DNA of 64,000 nucleotides from Roseovarius sp. EL26 (lineage in GTDB: Bacteria > Pseudomonadota > Alphaproteobacteria > Rhodobacterales > Rhodobacteraceae). The translations under genes were made by a program, and so were the position numbers. Location: the NCBI RefSeq assembly GCF_900327775.1, contig NZ_OUMZ01000002.1:59-64058 (forward strand). Direction: 5' to 3'. This document shows, in pieces, positions 24,542 to 58,381 of this stretch. The notes beneath the pieces were generated by a model that saw only the letters and a program-made list of their open reading frames with translations, had not been told where the DNA came from and did not search any database. Numbering within the stretch: position 1 is the first letter of the stretch; every line of letters starts with the position of its first letter.

Positions 24542-24564
24542 CTAGGTTTCGCAGCGAAACCTAG
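24542..24564. promoter_or_regulatory. Candidate parS site 1
   Basis: CTAGGTTTCGC (24542-24552), a central A, then its exact complement (24554-24564) form a perfect 23-base palindrome overlapping the parB stop codon. The core GTTTCGCnGCGAAAC recurs at 25609 and, with one change, at 27177. Confidence 0.65.
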
Positions 24565-25685
24565 TGGGATTTTTCCAACAAAGCTTGAATTTCCGTCATC
24601 AGAGAATCCATCAGATCAGCATCCAACCCAGCCCCCTCAAAACGCAGAACATAGCCCTTGCTGTCTTGCAGCTTGCGCAGCGTAATCCCGGCAGACGTGT
24701 GCAGAGTATCGGCATTCTGCCAACCCAGTGCCTGAGGTGTTTTGGATTTAGGTCGTCCGCCACGGCTGGCGTCACGTGGAGCAATTTCTGTGGCATCCAG
24801 CGCCACCTCAAGCACCTCCCACTCGTCATCTCCATTGGTCGCAGATTGTTGAGACAAGGCCTCGCGCAGCGTGCCCTCTGCCCCCGAGCGCAGCGCCTGT
24901 GCCAAACGCAGGCCGCGCTTTTCTGTCAGTTGTTCCGGGAACGACAGCATATCGCCCAGTTCTTCAAAGATCATCGCAAATGATCGCACTTTGGAGCGTT
25001 TAGCCTTTGACGCCGTGGCATACAGTTTGTTGACCGCGTCTTCGACATTCACAAAGGCGCCCTGCTGGGCTGATATCACGGCAATGCGGCCACGTTCGAA
25101 ATGGCTCAGCTCGGAGCGCACTTCGTTTTCTTCAACCATGGCCACAAAAGCTGCGTCCGCATCTGAACGCGGTCGGATGATCGCACGAATCTGTGTATAG
25201 ATGTCTTTCTCGGTCAATTCGTGCAAGGCCTGCACTGCTTTGAAACGACGGTAACCGGAAATCAACGCGTATCGGGCACCATTGGGGCGCGGCTCTGGTA
25301 GCTCAAAAACCTCGATTGGGAGGCGCAAGCCGTTTGCTGCGATCGACAGGCGCAGCTCCATCAGGTCTGCCTGATCCAGATCGATCCGGTCGCGGATCAT
25401 CGCATCAGCATCTATTTCCGTCAGCAGTAAATTGGCCATCAAAAGACCATCTGATCGAACCTTAGCCAACTCTTTGGCGTCTGCTGCATTGCGGGCATTT
25501 TCCGCGCGTTGCTCTGCTGGTACAGCTTGGGACATTGCCGCTGTATCCGCTGCAATTTGCGCAATTGGTGCCACTGCAGATCCCGGACCCGCAGGTGCCC
25601 GACCAGAGGTTTCGCGGCGAAACTCATCCTCGATTTTATTCAAATCCGCTGCACTTGGCGTTTCTAGTTTTCTCCGTTTAGCCAT
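24561..25685 (-). CDS. parB: ParB-family plasmid partition protein
   Basis: Residues ~85-200 form the ParB/Srx domain, with 'ALISGYRRFKAVQAL' and 'FVAMVEENEVRSELSHFERGRI', the latter being the conserved box that contacts ParA/CTP and starts the HTH region. A central HTH and a C-terminal dimerisation part complete a normal 374 residues. ParB binds parS, spreads along DNA and is pulled by ParA. The start overlaps the parA stop by eight bases. A parS-like palindrome lies within its own 5' coding part and another at its stop codon. Confidence 0.92.
   Translation of the reverse strand: MAKRRKLETPSAADLNKIEDEFRRETSGRAPAGPGSAVAPIAQIAADTAAMSQAVPAEQRAENARNAADAKELAKVRSDGLLMANLLLTEIDADAMIRDRIDLDQADLMELRLSIAANGLRLPIEVFELPEPRPNGARYALISGYRRFKAVQALHELTEKDIYTQIRAIIRPRSDADAAFVAMVEENEVRSELSHFERGRIAVISAQQGAFVNVEDAVNKLYATASKAKRSKVRSFAMIFEELGDMLSFPEQLTEKRGLRLAQALRSGAEGTLREALSQQSATNGDDEWEVLEVALDATEIAPRDASRGGRPKSKTPQALGWQNADTLHTSAGITLRKLQDSKGYVLRFEGAGLDADLMDSLMTEIQALLEKSH
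25609..25623. promoter_or_regulatory. Candidate parS site 2 (inside parB)
   Basis: GTTTCGC-G-GCGAAAC is a perfect 15-base palindrome within the beginning of parB. It is identical in its arms to site 1. Confidence 0.55.
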
Positions 25686-27090
25686 TGCTCATTTCCTTCT
25701 GCTCTTGTTCTGCGGCGTCTTGTTGCGCCTCTTGTAGATCTCGATACCATGCACCCAGGATCAACTCTTTGACCTCAGCCCAAGACCGATCAAATGTTTC
25801 GCGACCGCGCACATAGGTGTCTCTGTTGAACTCGCGGTAATCAGCCTCATAAATTCCATTAACCTGTTCACCAGCCTGTCCAACCATGGCGGTGACCTCT
25901 TGCCGAAAGGTTGTCATGAAGTCGCCAAAATAGGCCTGAATCACATTGGCCAGATCAGTTTGCTGATTGGCATCAAACCGCGTGATCAACGCCCGAACGG
26001 CATCCCACTCAAACCGAAACTCTGGCAGGCCCTCGCGGCGCCGGGCAGCGTTTTCACCGTCTTCGATGCTGGCAAAGGTGGAATAGAGCATATCAAAGAA
26101 TCGACCTGTTGAATCGAATTCCAAAAATGAAGCCCCCAGAGGAACCAACAAAATGTCGGCGGCTGAAAGCGCGTTGATGGTCAAGTATCCCAAAGCCGGT
26201 GGAGTATCGATCAGGATGATATCGTAGTCGTCAACGATGCGTTCGTTAGTCAGCGCATTGGTCAACGCATCCCAGAGCGGCCAGCTGCGCAGGCCCATGC
26301 GCCAGACCGGAATTTGAAATTCAGCCCAGTACAAATTGAGCTGAGCACCGAGCAAGTCAATATTTGGCCAGTGGGTGGTCTGAATGATATCGCGGGCCGA
26401 GACATTCGAAGCCTCGGTCAATGTTTCATCGAAGGGTAGGGGGGGTGTCCCCGCCGCGCTGCGCACCTCATTTTCTGCTTGCATCGCCTTGGCATAATCC
26501 TTGGCCATCAAGGGAAAGGCCGTGGACCATTCATCCGGGACGTCGCCACCCATGATCGAGGTCAGCGAGCCCTGACTGTCCAGATCAATGACCAGCACCT
26601 TGTAGCCATCCAAGGCGGCAGACATCGCCAGATGGGCGCAGGTTGATGTTTTGCCAACACCGCCTTTGAAATTGGCAACGGCAATGATTTTGGCGGGCAG
26701 ACCTTCGGGGCGCCAGGGCATGTATTCCCGGTCGGCAGCCCCTTCGCTGGCAAAGTGGTGACGGAGGGCCAATACGTCTTCGATTGAGAACCATTTGGAA
26801 TTTCCCTCACCCTGTCCTTGGGGTAGGGTTGGGTTCTTTTTCAACACGCGTCTGAAATGGGCCGGAGCGACGGGGATGAGGTATCGGCATATTTCCCAGG
26901 TAGAAAACCGGCGCAGTCGTTTTTTTCCGTCGGGGGCATAGCCACGTTTTGCCAGATCTTCACGACCGCGCCCCGCAAAAGCGGCGGCTTTCGCGAATCG
27001 GGCCGTATCGATAGGGTCAGAAAGACGTTCTGCCGCTGCAGCAGGATCAATGTTGAAATATGGTGGAAGGTGATCTTTGCCTGATGTCAT
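25678..27090 (-). CDS. parA: ParA-family plasmid partition ATPase
   Basis: From the ATG at 27090 the protein has 470 residues: an N-terminal HTH/linker region (~1-130) typical of large type Ia ParA proteins, then the deviant Walker A KGGVGKT (142-148), a Walker A' with VLVIDLDSQGS, and Walker B with 'DIILIDTPPALG'. GAGGAAG lies five bases before this ATG, so it is preferred to the one at 27120. ParA moves ParB-parS complexes to segregate the replicon, and its HTH usually autoregulates the operon. parB follows with an 8-base overlap. Confidence 0.95.
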   Translation of the reverse strand: MTSGKDHLPPYFNIDPAAAAERLSDPIDTARFAKAAAFAGRGREDLAKRGYAPDGKKRLRRFSTWEICRYLIPVAPAHFRRVLKKNPTLPQGQGEGNSKWFSIEDVLALRHHFASEGAADREYMPWRPEGLPAKIIAVANFKGGVGKTSTCAHLAMSAALDGYKVLVIDLDSQGSLTSIMGGDVPDEWSTAFPLMAKDYAKAMQAENEVRSAAGTPPLPFDETLTEASNVSARDIIQTTHWPNIDLLGAQLNLYWAEFQIPVWRMGLRSWPLWDALTNALTNERIVDDYDIILIDTPPALGYLTINALSAADILLVPLGASFLEFDSTGRFFDMLYSTFASIEDGENAARRREGLPEFRFEWDAVRALITRFDANQQTDLANVIQAYFGDFMTTFRQEVTAMVGQAGEQVNGIYEADYREFNRDTYVRGRETFDRSWAEVKELILGAWYRDLQEAQQDAAEQEQKEMSNG

Positions 27091-27175
27091 CGTGCTTCCT
27101 CTGAGATGTGCGCTATTCATTGCAATTTACTGACATCTATCGCACATCAATCCTCAGAAGGGAATCATTTCTCGC

Positions 27176-41152: not shown

Positions 41153-42877
41153 CTACCTGATAGAATTCAACCCGGCTTTATCCAAGCTCCGCATCAGCGT
41201 TTCTTTGTACTCTTCTTCTAGCTGCCAAATCGAAAGAATAGTCTGCGCCTCTAAAGCAAAATCCGGCCTAAGTCTAAGAAGCTGCCGCACAGCAGAGTCC
41301 GCGGCTTCATGATCCCCCAGTTCCTCATTCAGCACTGCTTGCCAAAGATGTGTCCAGAAAAAACCCGGCATCTCGATTTCATCTAAAACCTCAAAGGCAT
41401 GTTGGAATTCACCTTGATCATACAAATAAAAAACTCTGGGAAAGTAATACCAATGCGGGTGGGCAGGATTGAGTGCGATAGCCTTGTCCATGATAGCCAA
41501 TCCCTCATCCCAAGAACCACTAAGGGTTAGCCGTAATCCATAGTGAGCCAAAACAGCATTGTCATTTGAGTTCAATTCTATGGCGGTCGCGCCTGATTTC
41601 CTAAAACCGGCCAAATCACCTAATGAAAACCGCACATTTGCTAGCATCAGATGGCCTCCTGCAGAATGCGGGTTCAATTCTACTGCACGGCGCGCAGCTT
41701 CTTCTGCAGATTTGAATATTTCTTGTTCATTACCCCCAAGAGCAAACCGAATTTGCTGCATATAGAGATTTGATAAAACGACCCAAGCATCGGCATAATC
41801 AGGCTCTGATTGAACGGCTTGTTCAATACAGGCTTTCACTTCAGCATGACGAGTCAGATCAATCGATATTTGATAACTGTAGTATTCCAAAACGCATTCA
41901 TAAGCGCTGCGATTGTTTGGTGGAATCCGAGTCGCAGCTTTCATCGCTTCTTTCGAAAAAACCCCATATTTGCCTGCCAGATTGCCGATGACTTCGCGCG
42001 TAATCTCATCTTGCGCTTTGTAAACCTCTTCCGGGCTGCTGGTCGTGTCATAGCTGCGCACCCAGACGTATCTTTCTGTTGTTAAGTCAACAAGACGGGC
42101 AGAGATATTAAGGCCGTGTCCGGTATTTCTGACCGCCCCTTCGAGCACAAAGTCGGCATTAAATTCGTCTCTTAGTACTTTGAACTCTGTTTGGGTGTTA
42201 CGAAATCGTGCCACACTGCCTAATGGCAATACCCACAAATCATCAAACTTGATCAATTCAGTGGTTACTTGCTGTGTAATCCCATCGGCAACATAGCTTG
42301 GCCCATCCCCAAAAGAGGCGAAGGGGAGCACCGCAATGACCGGACCCTTAGGTAATGTTGAAGATACCGTGGCCGGTGCATTGTATTGAGCTTGAAATAG
42401 AAACAACCCAAGCCCGGCAATCATTACCAAAATGCCAACCGCACCCAAAATCAATCTTATTCTCTGGTGAGATTGCACTGGCGTGGTGGTCTTTTGCTGC
42501 GTCGCTGAATCAGCCTCTTGTAGTGTTTCATCATGTTCAAACCGAGGGACATAACTTCCTTTCGGGATCGTGATCCGGATTGGATCATTGCGCCCAGGCC
42601 CCGCATAATACGAATCTATATCCTGACGGAGTCTGCGCGCTTCCAATCGCACAATTGGGTCAATTTGTTGGTCGAAATCTTCATCGCGGCCAAACACTGA
42701 CATTGCGATAGAAATGCCCTTGATCTGTTTTGTTCGCCCCGCCAATGTTTCATCAACAACATAGTTGAGAAACGCCCGTCTTTGGGGTGTTGAAGCAAAG
42801 TCCGGATGATCAAGCAACCTCTGCAATTGGGAGCGAATATCTTGGTCCTTTGGGGTTGGTCCGGCTGCAGATGCCAC
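41153..42877 (-). CDS. wHTH-TolB/FlgO-TPR signalling protein
   Basis: Residues ~10-110 (DIRSQLQRLLDHPDFASTPQRRAFLNYVVDE to IRITIPKGSYVPRFE, in two runs) match a winged-helix-like domain often found at the head of large TPR proteins. One transmembrane helix follows (~140-160, LILGAVGILVMIAGLGLFLF). Then comes a TolB/FlgO-type beta-domain (VIAVLPFASFGDGPSYVADGITQQVTTEL) and a TPR array (~330-560). It resembles membrane-bound CadC-like or adenylate-cyclase-associated regulators, but no cyclase domain is present. Divergent from the alkylsulfatase gene, it may regulate it. Confidence 0.8.
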   Translation of the reverse strand: MASAAGPTPKDQDIRSQLQRLLDHPDFASTPQRRAFLNYVVDETLAGRTKQIKGISIAMSVFGRDEDFDQQIDPIVRLEARRLRQDIDSYYAGPGRNDPIRITIPKGSYVPRFEHDETLQEADSATQQKTTTPVQSHQRIRLILGAVGILVMIAGLGLFLFQAQYNAPATVSSTLPKGPVIAVLPFASFGDGPSYVADGITQQVTTELIKFDDLWVLPLGSVARFRNTQTEFKVLRDEFNADFVLEGAVRNTGHGLNISARLVDLTTERYVWVRSYDTTSSPEEVYKAQDEITREVIGNLAGKYGVFSKEAMKAATRIPPNNRSAYECVLEYYSYQISIDLTRHAEVKACIEQAVQSEPDYADAWVVLSNLYMQQIRFALGGNEQEIFKSAEEAARRAVELNPHSAGGHLMLANVRFSLGDLAGFRKSGATAIELNSNDNAVLAHYGLRLTLSGSWDEGLAIMDKAIALNPAHPHWYYFPRVFYLYDQGEFQHAFEVLDEIEMPGFFWTHLWQAVLNEELGDHEAADSAVRQLLRLRPDFALEAQTILSIWQLEEEYKETLMRSLDKAGLNSIR

Positions 42878-47726: not shown

Positions 47727-48601
47727 GCACCCTCCTCCATCAGATCAGAGGTAGAGCGATTGATGCGGTGGGTGATTTCGCTTAACCGTGTCAAGCTTTG
47801 CAGTGCGTATGGCAAGGTGACTGCTGCCCCAAGAAACTGGGTCGAGTAGGTGACGATTGCAAAGATATCGCCGGCAGATGCCCCGCTTTTGGTGGCGGCG
47901 AACCATAGGTTGAACGCGACCATGGCCATCAGCACGGCAAAGATCTTGCCATAAACGATGCTTTCCATGTCCGACAGTTTGACTTCGAGCTTGCGCAAGC
48001 CAAGAAAATAAGCGGCAACCTTTTTGGGGCTGGCACTTTCTAGCGCGGTCACTTGTTGTTCCGCCTGCTCGTTCAACCCGGCATTGGTTCGAAAGAAGCT
48101 GCGTGAAAAGGCCATATAGATCAACAGAATTACGATGGCGGATCCACCTGTTGAGAGGGCAAGCATGGTGTGGAACGACAGCAAGATCACAACAGATGCA
48201 ATGACCTGCACTAGGGCGGTCATGGTGTTGGGGGCTGTGTCTTCGAGAAAATCTACCAGCTCACGGCCCATTAAAACGCGGGCGTTGGTGACACTGACCG
48301 GCGCGCATTCCGAGCGCGCATATTGCGCCTTGCCCAGTTCGACCCGCATGGTGCCATAGGCGCGGGTGTCATAAATACGCCGCCCCGTGGCGACAACCAG
48401 CACCACGACGAACATGGCAATCAGGAACTGAAACGGCAGCCAATCATCTTTCAGCAGGCCATCAATAGACCGGCCAATCATCAGCGGCATCAGCGCAAAG
48501 AACGCGGTTTCCGCCAAGGTCAGCCCCCATGTGATGGCCACCTTGCCCCAAAAAGCGCGAAACAGGGTGCCGATAGACAGGCGGTCGGTGATCGCGATCA
48601 T
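47723..48601 (-). CDS. ABC-transporter six-TM domain protein without ATPase
   Basis: The 292 residues form a single ABC exporter-type membrane domain of about six helices (e.g. FLIAMFVVVLVVATGRRIYD, VQVIASVVILLSFHTMLAL, FAVLMAMVAFNLWFAA). No Walker A, signature or Walker B motif follows, and no separate ATPase gene is nearby. Stand-alone domains of this kind are known in databases but not characterised. The ATG at 48601 overlaps the Rieske stop (ATGA). Confidence 0.8.
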   Translation of the reverse strand: MIAITDRLSIGTLFRAFWGKVAITWGLTLAETAFFALMPLMIGRSIDGLLKDDWLPFQFLIAMFVVVLVVATGRRIYDTRAYGTMRVELGKAQYARSECAPVSVTNARVLMGRELVDFLEDTAPNTMTALVQVIASVVILLSFHTMLALSTGGSAIVILLIYMAFSRSFFRTNAGLNEQAEQQVTALESASPKKVAAYFLGLRKLEVKLSDMESIVYGKIFAVLMAMVAFNLWFAATKSGASAGDIFAIVTYSTQFLGAAVTLPYALQSLTRLSEITHRINRSTSDLMEEGA

Positions 48602-49749
48602 GTTTCGCCCAACCATTTGAGGACGCGTTTTTGGTGCTCGATCACAGGGCTTTCACCCTGCGCAGCGGGGCCGGTTTCAAAGTAGGGCGATTGGAGGGAA
48701 GCCTGCTGTTGCTCACAAGCATAAATGTCCTCGGCGGTGAAATCGCCGCCGGCCATTGGATCGTCTTCACTTGATGCGTCGCCCGCTTCGTATTTACCAC
48801 TCAGACCGAAGTTGTTCCAGAAACTGGCGGATTTCATCGCCTGTTTGGAAAACGCCCAGTCTGAGGCATTGGCCACGCGAGAGCGATTGTGAACACGCGT
48901 CAGCGAGGGCCCTAACGGTTCAATGATGAAAATATTCCAACCATCTTCCGCCGAGCCGATGCCGATTCCGGGCCAGAGCATTGGAACCCAGGCACCGTTC
49001 TGGCCTTCGGGGATGACCCTTGGGGCGGTCAGTTTGGCGTCTTGGTTTTCGGCATACGCGGGAACTGGTGGTTCCCAAAACATGTAGTGATCACCTTGCC
49101 AGTGATATTCAGCCGATTTGTGGTCATACATCTGGAGCGTGCCCGAGTGCAGATGGCTGAGGTGATAGACATCGATGTAATTCTCGACCACGATCTTCCA
49201 GTTCGCTTTGATCTCGTAGCTATTGCGTCCCTCTTCGTATTCGATCAATTCTTCGGGCACATGGGGGCCGATATGCTCCTCGGTCGGGCCGAACCAATCG
49301 GTGATCGGGCCTGCCTCCGGATCGGGATGAACGAAGATCATAGATTTCCAGATATCTACGCTGGCGGGCTTCAGCCCGTGACAAGCCTTGTCGACTTTTC
49401 CAAATTCTTCGTGCTCTTCCGGAACCGAAATCAGGTTACCCTCAAGATCGTACGTCCAGTCATGATAAGGACAGGTCAGGGCTTTTTGGGTTTTGCCGAC
49501 TGCACGGATCAACTGCGTTCCCCGGTGGCGGCAAATATTGTGAAAGGCGCGCAAGCGGCGATCCCGACCCATGACGATGAAGATATTGTTCAGGCCTGCC
49601 TGAACGCTAATGTATTGACCGGGCTCCGAGACATCCTCCATGAATCCGGCATAGCGCCATGTTTTGGAAAAGATGTCGCGCATTTCGCGATCAAACCACT
49701 CTTGCGAGGTATAAGCTGCAGTGGGCAACAGGTGTAACATTGTCGACAT
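48598..49749 (-). CDS. Rieske non-haem iron oxygenase, large subunit
   Basis: The Rieske 2Fe-2S motif is CRH (C73, H75) and CPYH (C93, H96), followed by the catalytic domain with 'NWKIVVENYIDVYHLSHLHSG', which supplies the two His of the mononuclear iron site. At 383 residues it resembles GbcA, stachydrine demethylase and other N-demethylases more than aromatic dioxygenases. Such enzymes use O2 and electrons from the reductase at 45649 to remove a methyl group or hydroxylate the substrate. The tmm/tdm module on the same replicon hints at a methylated amine, but the substrate is open. Confidence 0.92.
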   Translation of the reverse strand: MSTMLHLLPTAAYTSQEWFDREMRDIFSKTWRYAGFMEDVSEPGQYISVQAGLNNIFIVMGRDRRLRAFHNICRHRGTQLIRAVGKTQKALTCPYHDWTYDLEGNLISVPEEHEEFGKVDKACHGLKPASVDIWKSMIFVHPDPEAGPITDWFGPTEEHIGPHVPEELIEYEEGRNSYEIKANWKIVVENYIDVYHLSHLHSGTLQMYDHKSAEYHWQGDHYMFWEPPVPAYAENQDAKLTAPRVIPEGQNGAWVPMLWPGIGIGSAEDGWNIFIIEPLGPSLTRVHNRSRVANASDWAFSKQAMKSASFWNNFGLSGKYEAGDASSEDDPMAGGDFTAEDIYACEQQQASLQSPYFETGPAAQGESPVIEHQKRVLKWLGET

Positions 49750-49773
49750 TTAGGTTTCTCCTCAGAGTGGGGG

Positions 49774-50022
49774 TCAGGCCCAGCCGGGCAAGAAATCGGC
49801 CAAGATCAGCATGATGCCGAGTACGACCCAGGCAAGCTGGATTAACCAGAATAGAATTGGATCTTCCTCGCGCGAGACATCCGACACTAAAAAGGCGTGA
49901 CCTGCATAAAAGTTTGGGATCGTCCAGTAGAGGAACAGCAGCCCCCACAAGGATTGAAACCCAAGCGCGGTGCTGAGCATCAAAACCGCAAACACAACAT
50001 AGTTTAAAACACGAGGTTCCAT
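49774..50022 (-). CDS. Small membrane protein of the Rieske operon, 82 aa
   Basis: Three hydrophobic segments are visible (YVVFAVLMLSTALGF, WGLLFLYWTIPNFYAGHAFLV, FWLIQLAWVVLGIMLILADF). The ATG at 50022 overlaps the last base of the tetR stop (TAATG), and the Rieske gene begins 24 bases after its end. No family was recognised. It may help take up or hold the substrate at the membrane. Confidence 0.7.
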   Translation of the reverse strand: MEPRVLNYVVFAVLMLSTALGFQSLWGLLFLYWTIPNFYAGHAFLVSDVSREEDPILFWLIQLAWVVLGIMLILADFLPGWA

Positions 50023-50612
50023 TATTTCTCTCCGATTGAGTTCAGCAAGGTCTGCGCGGCTTGTTTGGATGTCAGGCGCCAACTGTCTGGAAGGTTAAGC
50101 GGGTTGAGCGATGAGACGTTGAAGAAGATCGCAGTAATACCGGTGGCGACGATGCGAAGGGTCTGCAGATCGGCACTTGCGTGGTCCATGGCAAGAACCA
50201 CGTGGATCTTGTCCTCGAAATCGGTGATCCAATCACGACATTCATGTTGCAGGGCGCTGTCCTCTGCTGCGCGTGCGGTCAGGGCGGCAAAAGCCATCAC
50301 CAAATCGGCTGAGGCGCTTTCGTCGGCGACGAATAGTATGTCGATCAGGGTTTGCGATTTGTGGGTGTCAGGCAGGCTGTCGAACATCGCATGGGCCAGT
50401 TCGGTGAAGGTGCCGAGCACAAAGGATTTCAGCTTTTCCAGCATGTCCTCTTTGTTGCCGAGATGATGCCGGATCAGAGGGCGCGACAGCTCTGCCTGCT
50501 TGGCGATGCGGTCCAGCGTGGCCCCGTCCAAACCATAGCGTGCAACGCAATGCACCATGGCCTCCATCACTTGATGATATCGTTCTTTCTGATTGGATGG
50601 GCGCCCAGCCAT
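50022..50612 (-). CDS. TetR-family regulator of the Rieske operon
   Basis: The N-terminal HTH (YGLDGATLDRIAKQAELSRPLIRHHLGNKEDML) is followed by a helical ligand-binding domain; 196 residues in total, as usual. As first gene of the operon it likely represses its own transcription and that of the oxygenase genes until a substrate is bound (inference from family). Confidence 0.92.
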   Translation of the reverse strand: MAGRPSNQKERYHQVMEAMVHCVARYGLDGATLDRIAKQAELSRPLIRHHLGNKEDMLEKLKSFVLGTFTELAHAMFDSLPDTHKSQTLIDILFVADESASADLVMAFAALTARAAEDSALQHECRDWITDFEDKIHVVLAMDHASADLQTLRIVATGITAIFFNVSSLNPLNLPDSWRLTSKQAAQTLLNSIGEK

Positions 50613-50735: not shown

Positions 50736-51223
50736 GGTTCTGTCGCAAACTTTTGGGGTTCATTGTTTGAATCGAAAGGTTTGTGATATCGGCGGCACGT
50801 GATTTCATGCTGTCGAAGCGCCGGAACAAGTCGGCAGCCACAAAGTTCTTCGCTCGTGCGCTCGAAGCGAACGGGCTCCCACGAAAGATTGTCACCGACA
50901 AGAGCGGAGCAAATACAGCCGGTATAACAGCAATCAACAAGATGCTGAGAGGGCTTTGGTTGTCCGATACCGATCTTGATGGTTAGGCGGAAATACCTCA
51001 ATAACATCATTGAACAGGACCATCGGTTCGTCAAACGGCGGATCAGGCCCATGCCGGGCTTCAAGTCTTTCGATTCAGCTGCATCTGCCTTGGTGGTTAA
51101 CATGATCCGTAAAGGGTCAATTCACGTCCGCACTCTGTCCGTTTCAGCAGGTTGCTCTACTGGCTGAATAGTCGACTCGCCAGCTCCATCTATGCTTCAG
51201 TCAGAGAATTTTGCGACAGAACC
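50736..51223 (+). mobile_element. Internally deleted IS6-family element (488 bp)
   Basis: Both ends are preserved: GGTTCTGTCGCAAA at 50736-50749 and its complement at 51210-51223. Inside, two transposase pieces in different frames are readable: 'RNKSAATKFFARALEANGLPRKIVTDKSGANTAG' and 'YLNNIIEQDHRFVKRRIRPMPGFKSFDSAA'. The N-terminal half of the gene is missing, so the copy cannot move by itself but could be moved by an active relative. 50613-51236 contains no other gene. Confidence 0.85.
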
Positions 51224-51236
51224 TTTCCCTTGCTAT

Positions 51237-53354
51237 CTACGAACCGCCACTTTTTGCCGAAATCACGTTTAAAGTCAGTATTCCATATCCTGTTTTATCT
51301 GAATGCGATGACCCCAGTCCCGAAACGATTGCTGAGCGGACCGCTGGGCCATCCACGGGCAACTTGTTCGAACGTTGAGTTTCAACGAACCGTGCGACCA
51401 CACCGGTAGCTTGGGCGCTGGCGGCCGACGTGCCCCCAAAGCCATATTCAGTTGCTTGATGAGAGTATAGCTTGCCGGCGCCTTCCGCATAGCCACCATG
51501 CCCCAGAATATCCGGGGCTGGGACATAGTTGTATTGTGGTTTTTTATCGGCTTGCTCGTTAGATTCTTCGGGTTTTGAGGATATGAAATCCTCATCACGG
51601 TCACTTGGACAAAGTGCACAAAGACCTCTTCCATATTGACTATATTCAGCCGGTACGAGTTCGGAGTTCTTGTTCGTGAGGTCAGAAAGCTTGGCAGATC
51701 CGACGACAATGATGCCGGTTCCTATAAATGGGTCTACACTCGCTTCTGCAGTCGCAGCAGCTTTTGCAGATGGCAAGGTTACCTTCATATCGAACTGATC
51801 AAGCAGCTTTTCAACGGCCAATCTACCGTCTTTGCTGGCAAGTATTTTACGGACTGCAGCAAAGTCGGACGGAGCCCCGGGATAAGAGATCACATTTGTC
51901 CCATCGTTGCCGGATGGGATCACAACGGGAATTTTGAAGCTGGAAACGAAAATGGCCAATGCCAAAGGATCGCAGACTGCGGCATACGAATCCAGATCAG
52001 TATCGTTGGCTAATTCATCAGGATACTGGCCTGATTCCGGGCGAACAAAAGGAGGCCCGATCAAGAGTACATCTGCAGGCTCCTTGAAACCAAATACCGT
52101 TTTTAATATGGCCTCCGCAACAGCCATCCGGTTTGTGTGACTATCGGCAAGTTTGGTTGACACCCGGATTGGGATCAGCCGCGCCTCAGGCGCTGCGCCC
52201 CAAAGCGGGCAGTAATCGCTGTGCGTACCTACAATTAACCCACCCATCGCAGTACCATGACCGCCACCTTTGGAACTAAAGGCCATACGACAGTCGCTTG
52301 AGACTGGGTAATCCACATTGATTACAGATTCTGAATTTTTCCACTTGTCAGGATCAGTGGTGTTGGCAAGCGTGGCACTGATGGCATGTCCGCCGTGGCG
52401 GGTAAATGTCGGATGGGTGATGTCAATTGGTGCATCAACAAGGCCAACAGTGACGCCATTCCCGCCTTTATCAATATTGCCGTGTTGCGCACTGATCCCC
52501 ATACGTTCAAGAGACCATTGTTCAAGCTTTATGTTGGGCTTTGGCGTGGGCAGCCGGTCTAATACCGGGCCATTGCCCAGATAATCGGGGCTGCCACCAT
52601 CGTAGGATTGTACGTCATTGATGGCTTCGACAAAAAGCTCGTCAAAGATATCGCGCAATTGGGTGAATGCGGCTCTGGCGATTGCTGCCCCTGCCACCCC
52701 GTCCGAGGCATAATGAACCCCCGCCCATTCACGGTTTTCCCGGATGCGATATGCGACATCAAACGACTCGGCCATGATGCCAGGATCGTAGCCAAAAATT
52801 TCCGCCATTCCATGAGCTAGCAGCGCAGATTGCGTGGCGTGCCCACTGGGGTAAGCCGCGTGATTGGGTACCGTTACAGTTGGATCGATAGCATGATCCA
52901 TCAGGTGAGGTCTTGGGCGATCGAATTTGTTTTTGTAATGGGCGGCAAGGCCCAAACCAGCAGTCTGCAACAGTGAAAGCAATCGAACAACGCTTGCAGG
53001 TGTCCCTGCCGAATTTTGAAATATAGCCAAGAACGGAGAGATGATGTCATCTACTTCTGCGTCAATTTCGCTTTGTCGCAGTGCGCGTTCCGAGGACCCT
53101 TGTTTTAGGAGTATATCGTCTAGCTCAGCTCGTAAGTTCGAGCCCAAGTAGTCAGGTGCAGCTGGCACTCCTGATTTATCCAATGTCTTGATGATTTGAT
53201 CCAGGCTTTGATAAAGTTGATGCCGATAGCGATCATCTACCACAGACCAAACAGACATATCAGGCAAAGACGATTTTGTTTTTGTCTTCGTTTTTGTCTT
53301 CGTTTTTGTTTTTGTCTTCGTTTTTGTCTTGGTCTTGGTCTTGGTCTTGGTCAT
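51237..53354 (-). CDS. PAP2-phosphatase/haloperoxidase-like plus subtilase fusion
   Basis: The ATG at 53354, with AAGGGG six bases before it, gives 705 residues. After Met come 13 Thr-Lys dipeptides. Residues ~100-230 are a PAP2/vanadium-haloperoxidase domain with all three motifs: KNKFDRPRP (~141-149), PSGH in YPSGHATQ (~169-172) and R-EWAGVHYASD (~208-218). From ~300 follows a subtilisin-like protease with Asp in GLVDAPID (~307), His in GGGHGTAMGG (~366), the oxyanion region PSGND and Ser in GGTSAASA (~643). No signal peptide is visible. The fusion of a phosphatase-type and a protease domain in one chain is not one I recognise as described. It lies about 90 bases downstream of the SARP gene on the same strand. 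Confidence 0.85.
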   Translation of the reverse strand: MTKTKTKTKTKTKTKTKTKTKTKTKTKSSLPDMSVWSVVDDRYRHQLYQSLDQIIKTLDKSGVPAAPDYLGSNLRAELDDILLKQGSSERALRQSEIDAEVDDIISPFLAIFQNSAGTPASVVRLLSLLQTAGLGLAAHYKNKFDRPRPHLMDHAIDPTVTVPNHAAYPSGHATQSALLAHGMAEIFGYDPGIMAESFDVAYRIRENREWAGVHYASDGVAGAAIARAAFTQLRDIFDELFVEAINDVQSYDGGSPDYLGNGPVLDRLPTPKPNIKLEQWSLERMGISAQHGNIDKGGNGVTVGLVDAPIDITHPTFTRHGGHAISATLANTTDPDKWKNSESVINVDYPVSSDCRMAFSSKGGGHGTAMGGLIVGTHSDYCPLWGAAPEARLIPIRVSTKLADSHTNRMAVAEAILKTVFGFKEPADVLLIGPPFVRPESGQYPDELANDTDLDSYAAVCDPLALAIFVSSFKIPVVIPSGNDGTNVISYPGAPSDFAAVRKILASKDGRLAVEKLLDQFDMKVTLPSAKAAATAEASVDPFIGTGIIVVGSAKLSDLTNKNSELVPAEYSQYGRGLCALCPSDRDEDFISSKPEESNEQADKKPQYNYVPAPDILGHGGYAEGAGKLYSHQATEYGFGGTSAASAQATGVVARFVETQRSNKLPVDGPAVRSAIVSGLGSSHSDKTGYGILTLNVISAKSGGS
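53274..53351 (-). repeat. Hexanucleotide repeat coding (Thr-Lys)13
   Basis: Thirteen 6-base units (ACN-AAR on the minus strand) immediately follow the start codon. Each unit lost or gained changes the protein by one Thr-Lys pair without shifting frame. Confidence 0.95.
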
Positions 53355-53442
53355 ATCAATCCCCTTCACTGAGTTATCGCAATTTTTTCAATACTTTCTT
53401 GGTTTTTGTCTTCGGCATATTCAATTTATTCTTGCGTCAATG

Positions 53443-55107
53443 TCAGCCTTCAATCAGGCCCATTTTCAATAATCCATTATTGATAACTTCGCGGCTGCGT
53501 TCTGAGGGCAGTACATAACTTGGCAATGCCATCGCCTTTGTGCCGAATTCCGGATCTAACTCGCGAATGCGTTGATACATCGCTGACGCGGCAGAGGTAT
53601 TATTGATCATTACAAGGCTTGCGAACATATGGCGCATCACCGGAAGAAAGTCCGGCCTACGGGATAGAACCTGGTTGCCGATACGGATCGCATCTTCATG
53701 TTTTTCTTGAAGGGTCGCCACTATTGCCGCAGATGCATCGTAGTAAAACTTATAGGGACTATAGCGCCCAAGGTTTCGGGCTATTTCAGCGGCAGATGCA
53801 CCTGTATTCAGATCACCTGTGTAAATAGCATTCATTGCAGTTGCATCCCAGGCAAAGGCAAGATTGGGAACAAGGCGGCGGCTTTGTGCTAAGTAGTCGC
53901 TGGCAAGAACATGATCGCGATGGACGAAGCTGGTAAAATGCCCAGCAATGGCAAGAACCATCGCATTTGATGGAGACATCGAAATGGCATTCTTGATGTG
54001 CTCATTCGCTTGCCCAAGCTTACGATCGTCGTCGCCATGACCTTCGCCAAGCATGAACATAGCAGCGACCCCAAACCATGCTTCGGTATTGGCTGAATAT
54101 GTCTCATCCATCAGCTGCCTAAGTAGGGAACGGGCATCTCTAATCCCATCGCGTGATAGTCCAAATAATTGATGTACGGCGGTATAAAGAGTCGGCTTGG
54201 TGTTGCGCCCCGATTGTCGCAGGATCAATGATTCAATTGAATCAACCGCACCCATAACAAATTCCATCATGGTCTCTGAGCTGATTAAAGTGGCGGTTTC
54301 ACAATCGTTACTGATGGAGGAGGTCCAAATCACTTTGCCTGTTGCTGGTATCCTAGCCACAATTGAAACTTGGAGTTCTTCACCCAGCAACGATGTGCGG
54401 ACCTCAACAAGAACCGGTGGACGAGAAAGGGAGTTTACATCCCTGTCCTGTACTTGATTGGATGTTAAATCACGTAAATCATAAGTTTCGACATAGCCAT
54501 TTTGCCTAAATGTGTTTTCGATCGCAGTAGCGATGCGCTCAGCAATGACTGAGGCCCGTACGTCGTCAGAAACAACGACAGGATTGCCTATCAATATACA
54601 AGGAAGTGCTGCGATATTCCCTGGTGCGATAGCTGAAATTACTTCACTGCCCATCATGTCCGATTGAGCATCTTGTACGCGCGCAGCAAAGGCTTGGCGT
54701 TCCTCACGCAACCAGTCTTCGCCGGCTTCCCCCAGGTTTGGCGCGTCTTCAAAAAACTCGATGTGCGTATCGCTCCCGGGGTCCATGTGGATATCAACAC
54801 CCTCTAACCAAACATAATCATAGTCGGCTTGAACGACGTCGCTGTGGTGATTTAGAGTTTGGCGCAATGCGGACAAAGCTTGGCGGAGAGAACTACTCGC
54901 GTAAGCTTCTGGTGACCGATCCCAAAGACGTGATCTAAGCCATTCACGAGAGCGGCGGCGATCACGCGATGTCGCTAGCATTACGAGAAGTGTACGCGCC
55001 TTTTTTGAGGGTATTCTAATTGCGCGCCCGTCAGGATCACAGAACCTGAAATTGCCAACCAAAGACAATATTGGCCGGTCTGCATCACTGTTGGAAGTCC
55101 TCCCCAT
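53443..55107 (-). CDS. SARP-type transcriptional regulator with TPR-like C-terminus
   Basis: The N-terminus (ILSLVGNFRFCDPDGRAIRIPSKKARTLLVMLATSRDRRRSREWLRSRLWDRS, in two runs) is an OmpR/SARP-type winged helix, followed by a short BTAD-like portion (ASSSLRQALSALRQTLNHH). A TolB-like or adenylate-cyclase-type middle and TPR-like helices up to residue ~550 come next. The ATG at 55107 has a very strong Shine-Dalgarno (GGGGGGAGG, five bases upstream). The open frame continues to an ATG at 55242 that lacks one. SARP proteins activate nearby operons. The small gene at 55244 lies upstream and the PAP2-subtilase gene downstream on the same strand. Confidence 0.82.
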   Translation of the reverse strand: MGRTSNSDADRPILSLVGNFRFCDPDGRAIRIPSKKARTLLVMLATSRDRRRSREWLRSRLWDRSPEAYASSSLRQALSALRQTLNHHSDVVQADYDYVWLEGVDIHMDPGSDTHIEFFEDAPNLGEAGEDWLREERQAFAARVQDAQSDMMGSEVISAIAPGNIAALPCILIGNPVVVSDDVRASVIAERIATAIENTFRQNGYVETYDLRDLTSNQVQDRDVNSLSRPPVLVEVRTSLLGEELQVSIVARIPATGKVIWTSSISNDCETATLISSETMMEFVMGAVDSIESLILRQSGRNTKPTLYTAVHQLFGLSRDGIRDARSLLRQLMDETYSANTEAWFGVAAMFMLGEGHGDDDRKLGQANEHIKNAISMSPSNAMVLAIAGHFTSFVHRDHVLASDYLAQSRRLVPNLAFAWDATAMNAIYTGDLNTGASAAEIARNLGRYSPYKFYYDASAAIVATLQEKHEDAIRIGNQVLSRRPDFLPVMRHMFASLVMINNTSAASAMYQRIRELDPEFGTKAMALPSYVLPSERSREVINNGLLKMGLIEG

Positions 55108-55243
55108 TAGGACCTCCCCCCCAAATTCATCATCCACATCTATCCCAACGAGACTAGTTTCATCCAAATTATACGTCAGATTTTGTTTCTGTGAAGCGAT
55201 TATGCGTGGATGGCGCGATTTATGGGTGTCAAACAGTGCCATG

Positions 55244-55771
55244 TTATATCAAATTACGAGGGTAGCGGTCGCTATTGAAATCGTAGGGAAGAAGTTCCCG
55301 CGACCAAGGTACATATGTTGCATCAAAATGGGCTACAATGCCGGGCTCATTGGCGGCCAAAAGCGGGCAATCGTTTCTATGCGACCCAGTCTGCGTACCT
55401 GACTCTAATCTTATCACCCCCCCTAAACTGATTGTGTCTCCTGATTGTTGCAGAAAAACGCATCCGTCTCCGCCCACGTGATGACCAATGGTTTCTTGGC
55501 CGTCAGGTAGTTTTCGGTCGACAATAAAGAGCTCACTCTCATTCGGCCCCTGTGAAACAAATGTAGAAAAGATCGCTAAGTCAGCAGTCAACTCCATAGG
55601 AGCTTCGTGTTCGCGCTCTAAACAAGCGCCAGCATTAGAAATGCTTAAGAATTCATTCTTCTTACCTGACCTTTTAACGATGAGGAACTCATTATATCTA
55701 GCCAAGATTGTTTGAGGATGATGATAACTAGCTATTGCGCGTTGATTCTGCATAGCTATGAAAAAACTCAT
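55244..55771 (-). CDS. Hypothetical protein, 175 aa, first of the SARP/subtilase unit
   Basis: No known domain. It has no signal peptide, and the last third (GDTISLGGVIRLESGTQTGSHRNDCPLLAANEPGIVAHFDATYVPWSRELLPYDF, broken into parts) is rich in His, Asp and aromatic residues. AAAGAG precedes the ATG at good distance. The stop lies next to the upstream start codon of the SARP frame, so co-transcription is likely. Confidence 0.6.
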   Translation of the reverse strand: MSFFIAMQNQRAIASYHHPQTILARYNEFLIVKRSGKKNEFLSISNAGACLEREHEAPMELTADLAIFSTFVSQGPNESELFIVDRKLPDGQETIGHHVGGDGCVFLQQSGDTISLGGVIRLESGTQTGSHRNDCPLLAANEPGIVAHFDATYVPWSRELLPYDFNSDRYPRNLI

Positions 55772-55911: not shown

Positions 55912-55978
55912 CTACTGGCTGAATAGTCGACTCGCCAGCTCCATTTATTCTTCCCTCAGAGAATTTTGCGACAGAATC
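55912..55978 (+). mobile_element. Right-end fragment of the second IS6-family type
   Basis: These 67 bases match 51157-51223 with only a few changes and end in the same terminal repeat (TTTTGCGACAGAA). Together with 50736-51223 they bracket the whole PAP2-subtilase/SARP unit in direct orientation. Confidence 0.8.
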
Positions 55979-56121: not shown

Positions 56122-56630
56122 TTAAGCAGCGGATTTAGCGTGCTGTAAGCGCCTTAGTTTCATGGTCCTCCTTTTTGTCTTCTCCCGTTTGCGCGTTGGT
56201 CTGTGTGACCCTTTGGTGCTATTATTCAACCGTTTGTGCGCACGATGATCCACGTCTAACTCAAGCTTGCGTAGAGCCGCGCCGTAGCTGCGGAGCTTGT
56301 CCGTTACCACAACCCTCGGATTGACCCAACGGGCCATCAATCTGGAAATGAACCGTTTGGCAGCCCGTGTGTTGCGTCGAGTTTGGACCAGAACATTAAA
56401 GATCTGGTCGTTGCTGTCCACTGCACGCCATAGCCAGTGTTCCACACCCCGAATCATGATGACCACTTCGTCGATATGCCATTTATCGCTGGGCCGAATT
56501 TTAAACCCACGCGCGGATCGTTTCGTAGCTGACAGTAATGCCCCGTTCAGCCAGCAGGGTCTCAACGTCGCGCAGGCTCAAGGCGAAGCGGTGATAGGCC
56601 CAGATCGCTGGTCAATAAGTGGACGATGCC
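56122..56630 (-). pseudogene. Decayed IS6-family transposase and element end
   Basis: The element end is at 56630 (minus strand GGCATCGTCCACTTATTGACC). The N-terminal part 'AYHRFALSLRDVETLLAERGITVSYETIRAWV' stops after a small deletion at about 56500. The remainder (KWHIDEVVIMIRGVEHWLWRAVDSND...LRSYGAALRKLELDVDHRAHKRLNNSTKGSHRPTRK, in pieces) continues in another frame. The catalytic Glu position reads NNSTKGS, so even the frame-restored protein would be inactive. Positions 55979-56121 show no gene. Confidence 0.85.
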
Positions 56631-56695: not shown

Positions 56696-58381
56696 TTAGT
56701 GCGTCGCTACATGACCACTGATGCAATGTGTACTCTCCAACGGAAATTTGTCGTTTTTGTTCATTCGGTACACCAGCTGCTTTTGATGTTTTCCACTGGG
56801 TGTATAACGAGCAAACTTTTGACTTTTCATATCAGACATCACTTGTGGAAATAAGCTCAGAATCTCTTCGATGGCATCCTGCTCCAAAGCGTTCATAGCG
56901 TTAGAACCAAGATAGAAACTCTCAGACTGTAAACCATTTGCAAAGAGGATTTGATGAGATTCAAAAACTAGATGAAAATATTCAACAAATTGAATCGCCT
57001 CATCGATATGGATATTTTCGAACTCTGATAATTTGATAGCGGAAACCAAAACTTCAGCTTCGTCAAACATTCGTTGTGATATGCTAGAGCGCACCAACAT
57101 TCTATGCTGGCGTGAAACAAGTAAATCCTGCCGAGGGAGCTCCTCCCCAAACGCGCCTGCCTTGATCCTAACAGGCCTGAACTTAGGATTCTGGCGCAAT
57201 TCCACACTAGTAACCATGCGACTGAGTGCTAGGCCAAGCGGTTGATACCCATTATCTAGTGTTAGGACTTGGTCACCTGTTTTCAGATTTTCAACTGCGA
57301 CCTCACCCTCCATTGTCTGAATCAATGTTCCGCGCGCAAAGCACGCAATTCCCGTTTGTTCTAGGATGGACGGCGAAGAAGCCCCGCTTAGCCCCGCAAG
57401 ACCTGTGATCGAGCCCCCCAGAGCTGTATTATCAGAATAGTCGCTACCATCTGACTGATTAAGGATACCGTCATCTGCCAGATCGGCCTTAAATTCAGCT
57501 TGGTTCGTGTAAAAAGCAGACAGGTTAATAAAATCATTGTTGGTATTATCGCCGTCATTGGCATTCGTTGACCCCGCGCCAAAATCTGTGATGACTGTGC
57601 CACCATCGCCAGCGTTGTGTACAAAGGTATCATTACCAGTCCCGCCAGTTAGCACATCGGCTCCGGGCCCACCAGTCAGCGTATCGTTGCCACCACCGCC
57701 GGTGAGTGTGTCATCTCCAAGATCGCCGTTGACGCTATCGTCACCAAAAGAGGCGTCGATGACGTCGTTTCCGGCCCCACCCGTAATAACATCATCATCG
57801 ACCAAAGGCCCGACAGCACCTGTCGTTTCAAGCGGCGTTGGCGTCGCGCCAAACTCTGCACCACTGATGTTAACATTTAAATTATCTGGGGTAGCAGTGG
57901 TGTCCTTTGCATAGATGATGACAACATCATGAGCGCCTTCGGTTAGCGTAACAGACCCATTAAAGGTTGCGTTTCCGAAGGATTGAGTGCCGCCAAGTAA
58001 AACCCCGTCAACATAAATTGCCGCAGAATTGTAGAAATCCATATCAAAGGTATACGTTCCACCCTCAACATGAAGCTTAGTTTCAAACCGGTATGCATGG
58101 CCAAAAGTATCACCAAAGCCGATTTGACTATTCAGTGCATTGGGGTCGATGGAATTTGTGTCAGCGTCACCAAATGGATTGACCGCGATTGTCGCCCCTT
58201 CAGGGGTAGTTTGCCCTGTTGCAACATCAATCGATCCGTCGGCCAAGTTAAAGTATGTATCGAGAAGAACGGATTCTAGATTCGTCGTGAGGCCGTTAAC
58301 ATCAACGTATTGAACATTGAATATCCCAATGTCTGTGTTGCTGATCGCGTCGGACCCACTAGTACCATTAATCGTTACCAC
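56696..58381 (-). CDS. RTX/Hint-domain secreted protein
   Basis: Residues ~1-170 include a PA14-like carbohydrate-binding type beta-domain ([38 protein letters not shown], read in parts). Residues ~190-260 hold RTX nonapeptides ([33 protein letters not shown]). The Hint domain starts at Cys near 350 ([33 protein letters not shown]) and contains [13 protein letters not shown]. Export by type I secretion is likely from the RTX part. Autocleavage at the Hint Cys is possible but unproven. The C-terminal region is clearly related to 10217-11659. It is surrounded by IS remnants. Confidence 0.85.

Follow-up and report, generated by a model that had tools for sequence, protein, structure and literature searches.

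The window analysed here, a stretch of 64,000 nucleotides from Roseovarius sp. EL26 (bases 59–64058 of contig C2 in a 3.9-Mb assembly of 7 contigs), carries a three-gene unit in which a phosphatase-like PAP2 domain and a subtilisin-like S8 protease are joined in one chain. We conclude with high confidence that this unit is the fused form of a widespread accessory module made up of a TPR regulator, a PAP2 enzyme with an N-terminal peptide array and a protease. The initial annotation had reported a three-gene unit here and is confirmed overall: three open reading frames (ORFs) lie on the (−) strand in the order SMALL, SARP-like regulator and PAP2-S8 fusion, with a gap of one base between SMALL and the regulator. 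The features of the unit are listed below.

51237..53369 (−): fused PAP2 (acid-phosphatase-like) and S8 subtilase protein, 710 residues as listed
53274..53351 (−): (Thr-Lys)13 array at the N-terminus of the fusion, from repeat detection
52602..53237 (−): PAP2 domain, about residues 45–256, acid phosphatase fold from Pfam and predicted structure
51246..52517 (−): subtilase (S8) domain, about residues 285–708, with Asp312, His371, Asn488 and Ser648
53443..55242 (−): SARP-like regulator with N-terminal winged helix and TPR-like C-terminus, 599 residues, from Pfam and homologues
55244..55771 (−): SMALL, 175 residues, unnamed family, first gene of the unit, recurring near some other module loci

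With fused homologues as query, a search of the same family matched 75 of 394 genomes at E 1e-20 or better; five places are nearly full-length matches to the fusion and the remainder cover chiefly its PAP2 part. The surroundings of 82 places were read, which together with the window gave 83 loci and 84 PAP2 genes. A homologue of the SARP-like regulator is present in 79 of the 83 loci and a protease also in 79. Separate S8 proteases form one cluster with 42 loci, another with 17 and a third that adds 5, while papain-like C1 proteases account for 10 loci and the fused S8 for 5. The loci without a protease in this first pass are L063, on a 7,275-base contig, the fragment L064, L075 and L085, and later profiles yielded a protease match near L063 and L075. 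PAP2-profile searches matched 21 of 289 genomes in the class and 33 of 398 in the phylum, and 40 of these places were read, the other matches, mostly weak, being left out. Nearly all strong matches have the module, including two outside the window's class (L165, L166). The exceptions are L177, with an imperfect array and a neighbour bearing a HEFGH motif, and L172, with an array of only three units; at L172 (7118–7993) the PAP2 gene has three to four GGNWF-like units, below threshold, and adjoins an S8 gene and a cyclase-type regulator. Fifteen weak acid-phosphatase-like loci, grouped post hoc (L152–L156, L158–L163, L179–L182), have no regulator, protease or array by our own profiles. L157, a weak match kept out of these 15, encodes a 481-residue PAP2 protein and has a regulator-like neighbour, with no protease match and no array.

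Contigs of named genomes gave no match to a single-protein query but did match an alignment-based one. Among the best 80 of 568 relatives in a motif-driven scan of these genomes, a regulator accompanies 70 and a protease 70, and arrays are exact in 62 and loose in 3; L218, L221, L259 and L267 lack regulator, protease and array. In the merged, de-duplicated set of 205 genes all three parts occur with 156, none with 19 and a mixture with 30, and pairwise Fisher tests of the parts give p values of 7e-13 to 6e-16, uncorrected for relatedness. This set comprises loci found by PAP2 similarity plus 20 chosen by An_peroxidase, and it drops rows with an identical active-site stretch and PAP2 matches weaker than 1e-18. 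Gene calling relied on a mechanical ORF picker and on hidden Markov models built from these loci, so the counts lean towards the module. Records with the same order of parts come from Palleronia, Paracoccus, Rhizobium leguminosarum and Phyllobacterium, the Palleronia order being regulator, PAP2, S8, haem peroxidase and C1 peptidase, and the module is also present in Rhizobium johnstonii 3841, as the pRL12 genes RL_RS36050, RS36045 and RS36040. On a Palleronia plasmid (L119, 11434–15191) a haem peroxidase and a C1 peptidase come after the module. One genome holds two modules on a single stretch (L112), with the differing arrays (GS)20 and (SAY)10. Plasmid records contained no near relative, the best match spanning 22% of the query.

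The fusion protein itself bears out the domains assigned to it. Pfam recognises PAP2 (8.6e-7, 29.2 bits, cut-off 27.2) and Peptidase_S8 (3.2e-13, 50.1 bits, cut-off 21.8) in the one chain, and the three PAP2 motifs that had been claimed are complete (K146-x6-R153-P154, P174-S-G-H177 and R213-x5-H219-x3-D223). The catalytic Asp, His and Ser of the subtilase, D312, H371 and S648, are invariant in an eight-row homologue alignment together with the oxyanion Asn, N488, and lie within a subtilisin fold. The count of 13 Thr-Lys repeats at the N-terminus proved exact, and the reported lack of a visible signal peptide holds in that a hydrophobicity count, which is not a signal-peptide predictor, finds no strongly hydrophobic N-terminal stretch. 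The listed start is a GTG at 53369; since an alternative ATG at 53354 is preceded by GAAGGGG, this ATG is the likelier start, and the protein may then begin MTKTKTK. Folded alone, the PAP2 domain is predicted to form one compact helical domain of about 220 residues in which acid phosphatases lie ahead of haloperoxidases by about 7 Z units, and in both fold and sequence it is nearest to acid phosphatases.

Class A acid phosphatases carry the signature K-x6-RP / PSGH / SR-x5-H-x3-D and are normally periplasmic, with a signal peptide. The window domain resembles those of the PhoN/PhoC type (for example 7f17 and 2akc) in this signature, but with Asn in place of Ser before R213, and in its length, which falls within their range of about 215–230 residues. 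It differs from them in lacking a signal-peptide-like segment, as judged by the hydrophobicity count, so that a periplasmic location is not indicated, and in its N-terminal peptide array and its association, by fusion or linkage, with a protease and a TPR regulator. Unlike other subtilases (MEROPS S8), the window S8 domain is fused behind PAP2 and shows no signal-like segment.

Defined as an exact tandem peptide with a unit of 2–5 residues and at least four copies within the first 180 residues, the array occurs in 80 of the 84 PAP2 genes; none of the 183 recognised neighbours has one, and among 719 other neighbours there is 1 (Fisher 9e-112). Three of the four PAP2 genes that lack it have degenerate arrays by eye and the fourth (L064) is a fragment. 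The units are varied, with 83 distinct units in 167 arrays (for example TK, NR, NK, SR, GGLN, DGAV, TGN, NSQ and ENW). At the DNA level none of 80 arrays has all units identical and 78 have at least three distinct DNA units; peptides that are fully identical are often written in DNA units that all differ (11 of 11 in L084). Compared with the modal codon, 2174 array codons show 941 synonymous and 15 non-synonymous differences, a count biased by the detection of arrays as exact repeats and by an extension limited to units longer than two residues. Thus the array peptide, not its DNA, is held by selection. A role of the repeat as DNA, whether as a binding site or in frame switching, was ruled out, as synonymous changes scramble the DNA units and the units are whole codons. 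Copy number drifts, since the NK array has 6 copies in 1, 7 in 9 and 8 in 5 of 15 Rhizobium records.

The array unit appears from sequence to follow the type of protease. Where the sole protease is a separate first-type S8 or the fused S8, dipeptides make up 45 of the 48 units, and Lys or Arg is present in 47, the exception being TH. All 16 units beside a C1 protease are tetrapeptides, all 22 beside an A4 protease are tripeptides, and beside the S8b protease 51 of 65 are tripeptides of highly diverse sequence. Within a class, length and charge pattern are kept although the letters change. The protease slot itself varies. A Peptidase_A4-type (glutamic) protein occurs in L145, L146, L147, L150 and L169 (by Pfam for L147, by our own profile for the rest), and this type is the sole protease for 32 of the 205 genes. 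In the gammaproteobacterial loci L206 and L212 the neighbour of the PAP2 gene contains HExxHxxGxxHP, which we take to be the metzincin motif, and matches Pfam at most weakly (Reprolysin_5, 0.018). Because S8, C1, A4 and metzincin-motif proteins all fill the slot, the PAP2 neighbour is by sequence still a protease while its catalytic class switches. Trypsin-like genes come after the fusions in L037, L038 and L039.

The regulator had been described as a SARP-type activator with a TPR-like C-terminus; by Pfam the window protein is a weak case of one. BTAD is present in the homologues L044 and L096, and several regulator homologues have TPR above the Pfam cut-off. The window regulator itself is sub-threshold in Pfam for Trans_reg_C (21.6 bits, cut-off 26.2) and for TPR_19 (23.6 bits, below its cut-off), has no BTAD reported by Pfam and also falls below the NCBIfam cut-offs. 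It resembles SARP and HilA/EilA-type regulators in a winged-helix similarity near the N-terminus and in its TPR C-terminus, but stays under the family cut-offs. Among 126 regulator matches (E <1e-25, in the loci read at that point) 96 fit a winged-helix profile, 20 a nucleotide-cyclase profile, 2 both and 8 neither, so that 22 of the 126 depart from these regulators in fitting the cyclase profile; Pfam confirms Guanylate_cyc in L145 and L057. SMALL, which had been called a small unrecognised gene, indeed matches no Pfam family, and a profile search of the PDB gave a best E of 0.98, but it has 10 homologues besides the window copy and recurs beside some other module loci. The SMALL-SARP-fusion order recurs in L036, L199 and L200, and therefore the unit is not a chance grouping; conservation of the SARP gene next to the fusion was a check named beforehand. 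At L041 (8922–10030) SMALL adjoins a 188-residue regulator N-terminus in what may be a decayed unit; the 15 kb read there contain no PAP2 match. In L124, L129, L130, L138 and L140 regulator homologues lie near haem peroxidases, with no PAP2 match in the stretch read; these may represent a sister system.

A PAP2 tree built from 139 rows and 223 columns unites the 12 fused rows, all of them, in a single clade with support 0.84, which groups with 20 of the 21 rows having a separate first-type S8, plus one fragment, at support 0.94. Support is low elsewhere, at 0.45 for the C1 group and 0.36 for S8c with A4. The simplest reading of this tree is a single fusion event. The relatives nearest to the window fusion by identity are L036, L199 (uncultured Roseovarius) and L200 (Tranquillimonas alkanivorans), all of which keep SMALL and the regulator.

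We propose that the module is a regulated, self-limiting effector. The regulator would sense stress and turn the operon on, the cyclase versions making a nucleotide signal instead. The PAP2 enzyme would be a cytosolic hydrolase of broad range, acting on nucleotides or other phosphates and harmful to its own cell when free. The repeat tail would be multivalent, offering the partner protease many places to dock or cut; by acting there the protease would release, localise or remove the PAP2 enzyme, and in a lineage that swapped its protease the tail would have changed with it. In the window, where the pair is fused, protease, phosphatase and (TK)13 tail would work in one chain, and the likely role would be in conflict or stress. 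The statement taken whole, module together with mechanism, has in our judgement slightly less than an even chance of being right; the mechanism by itself, a PAP2 effector read by the protease through its tail, is tentative and rather more apt to fail than to hold. The joint function suggested by the initial annotation is partly supported, in that PAP2, protease and regulator are a recurring linked module, and we infer the coupling of their functions.

Several observations weigh against this mechanism. The link between unit and protease is confounded by ancestry, because the protease classes largely coincide with clades on the PAP2 tree. The diversity of the S8b units does not follow simply from a strict cleavage-site model, and 10 of the 32 genes beside A4 have no exact array, a few of them an imperfect one. 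The cytosolic location is read from the hydrophobicity count only. We saw no tie to a phage or defence island, gene islands and defence genes near relatives not having been searched, and the haem peroxidases and vanadium bromoperoxidases at some loci are not explained. A defence system was considered and set aside, as PADLOC returned for the three window proteins a generic 'subtilase' model (1.7e-10) and nothing further, with gene islands untested; an origin from phage was rejected as tblastn against 50,697 phage records gave no match. The likeness to bacterial conflict systems with protease effectors, in accessory gene set, exchangeable protease and dedicated regulator, is one of analogy.

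A more specific version would make the module a two-key effector, in which a self-harmful cytosolic phosphatase carries a repeated keyword read solely by its own protease; the keyword would drift between species, its copies would stay identical within a protein, and it would have to match a protease of any catalytic class. We regard this version as possible, though unlikely.

An improbable alternative is that the array is a flexible spacer generated by DNA slippage, with no specific partner. The shift of the Rhizobium copy number by single units and the model confidence of the tail in the fusion, below 50, would suit such a spacer, but the hundreds of synonymous and few amino-acid changes among copies indicate that the peptide is kept, and recognised neighbours have no arrays.

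It is likewise improbable that the PAP2 protein binds vanadate and makes hypohalite, forming with the protease a killing or remodelling mixture loosely like that of a neutrophil granule. Acid phosphatases and vanadium haloperoxidases belong to one superfamily and have active-site residues in common. Bromoperoxidase homologues occur in 9 of the 83 loci, and the two checked against the PDB match solved enzymes (L039 to 5lpc at 5e-102, L095 at 4e-19). Animal-type haem peroxidases (Pfam) lie within 10 kb of a PAP2 match at at least six places against about 0.11 expected, an expectation based on about 110 An_peroxidase genes, estimated by eye; several of those adjoining modules carry the motif GQF[IL]DH[DE]. 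Among 20 further haem-peroxidase loci, picked by type of alignment and blind to context with the first six excluded, four have the full module (L131, L134, L141, L142). The haem-peroxidase cluster includes the doubtful members L068, L074 and L081. The peroxidase links look real, yet are confined to a minority of loci. The precomputed domain PF22778, which we take to be the haloperoxidase (vanadium chloroperoxidase) domain, is found on 6 of 17 homologues, a further point against our mechanism, but not on the window protein. Vanadium haloperoxidases consist of two helical bundles and exceed 400 residues, whereas the window domain lacks the second bundle, and haloperoxidases of 410–639 residues align to it over about 186–213 residues only. 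Moreover, most loci have no peroxidase, and the single haem peroxidase checked barely resembles lactoperoxidase (1.6e-4). Haloperoxidase activity was dropped as the leading explanation once the fold of the lone domain had favoured acid phosphatases.

We consider it quite doubtful that the array is a multi-copy precursor from which the protease frees many identical di-, tri- or tetrapeptides as signals or products. Exact identity of copies while the choice of unit is free, and the tie between protease class and unit length, would be expected of a precursor, but dipeptide units are very short. At L121 (11164–13919), a record from R. leguminosarum, three genes come after the module, one annotated as HEXXH 'putative peptide modification', one of ThiF type and one short and hypothetical; a peptide modification, perhaps of the array, is possible. 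These genes favour a precursor, but in one record only, the other Rhizobium stretches being too short to tell; nor was an exporter recognised, although neighbour clusters 7 (apart from its window member), 10–12 and 16–23 carry no identification.

A reading of the array as an unusual signal for export or assembly, with the module acting outside the cytoplasm, is very improbable. The usual periplasmic location of class A acid phosphatases would favour it, as would the trypsin-like neighbours, one of three being over the hydrophobicity threshold and two near it. However, the S8 and C1 partner proteases inspected by eye start without a signal-like stretch, and no exporter was recognised beside the module, though no search aimed at exporters was made. 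Finally, chance neighbours or a frame error joining two genes, suggested by the separate PAP2 and S8 genes of relatives, are already refuted by the 12 distinct fused rows in one clade, a check named beforehand, and by the same neighbours across many genomes.

The surroundings of the unit contain the following features.

51157..51221 (+): IS6-type end on the downstream side of the unit, resembling Ruegeria IS6 genes
55912..55976 (+): IS6-type end on the upstream side, direct repeat of 51157..51221
50783..51167 (+): IS6/IS240-type transposase pieces, two short ORFs, DDE_Tnp_IS240
56122..56565 (−): IS6/IS240-type transposase piece, DDE_Tnp_IS240 1.2e-25

The IS6-type ends that had been reported to bracket the unit (at 51157–51223 and 55912–55978) are direct repeats of 65 nt with 94% identity, flank it on both sides and adjoin IS6/IS240-type DDE fragments; they have no further match across the assembly, making two copies in all. 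A composite element has two direct IS copies around its cargo, and here the 65-nt ends are on both sides while the transposase ORFs are short pieces. ParB- and ParA-type genes at 24561–27120 make it probable that the window belongs to a plasmid. Both this plasmid-like location and the IS6 ends agree with a mobile, accessory trait. A Rieske ring-hydroxylating oxygenase alpha subunit and a TetR-type regulator (48598–50612) adjoin the downstream IS end, and a 561-residue protein with RTX calcium-binding repeats and a Hint_2 domain (56696–58381) lies just beyond the upstream one. A 574-residue TPR protein at 41153–42877 (−) is weakly like the module regulators (2e-8), with no adjoining PAP2 match.

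We know of no system that combines a phosphatase-fold enzyme bearing a lineage-specific exact array with a regulator and a protease of exchangeable class, and the three-gene unit is apparently undescribed. Open-access literature gave no description of the module among the matches listed, subscription papers and preprints being outside the search, and in the part available to us of a commentary on bacterial haloperoxidases (PMC8407465) the word 'protease' does not occur. The components are familiar and their combination is apparently new. The module offers a natural series of array-protease pairs for the study of how repeat peptides are read, and genes annotated merely as 'PAP2 family', 'S8 family' and 'SARP family', including those of Rhizobium johnstonii 3841, become testable as one unit.
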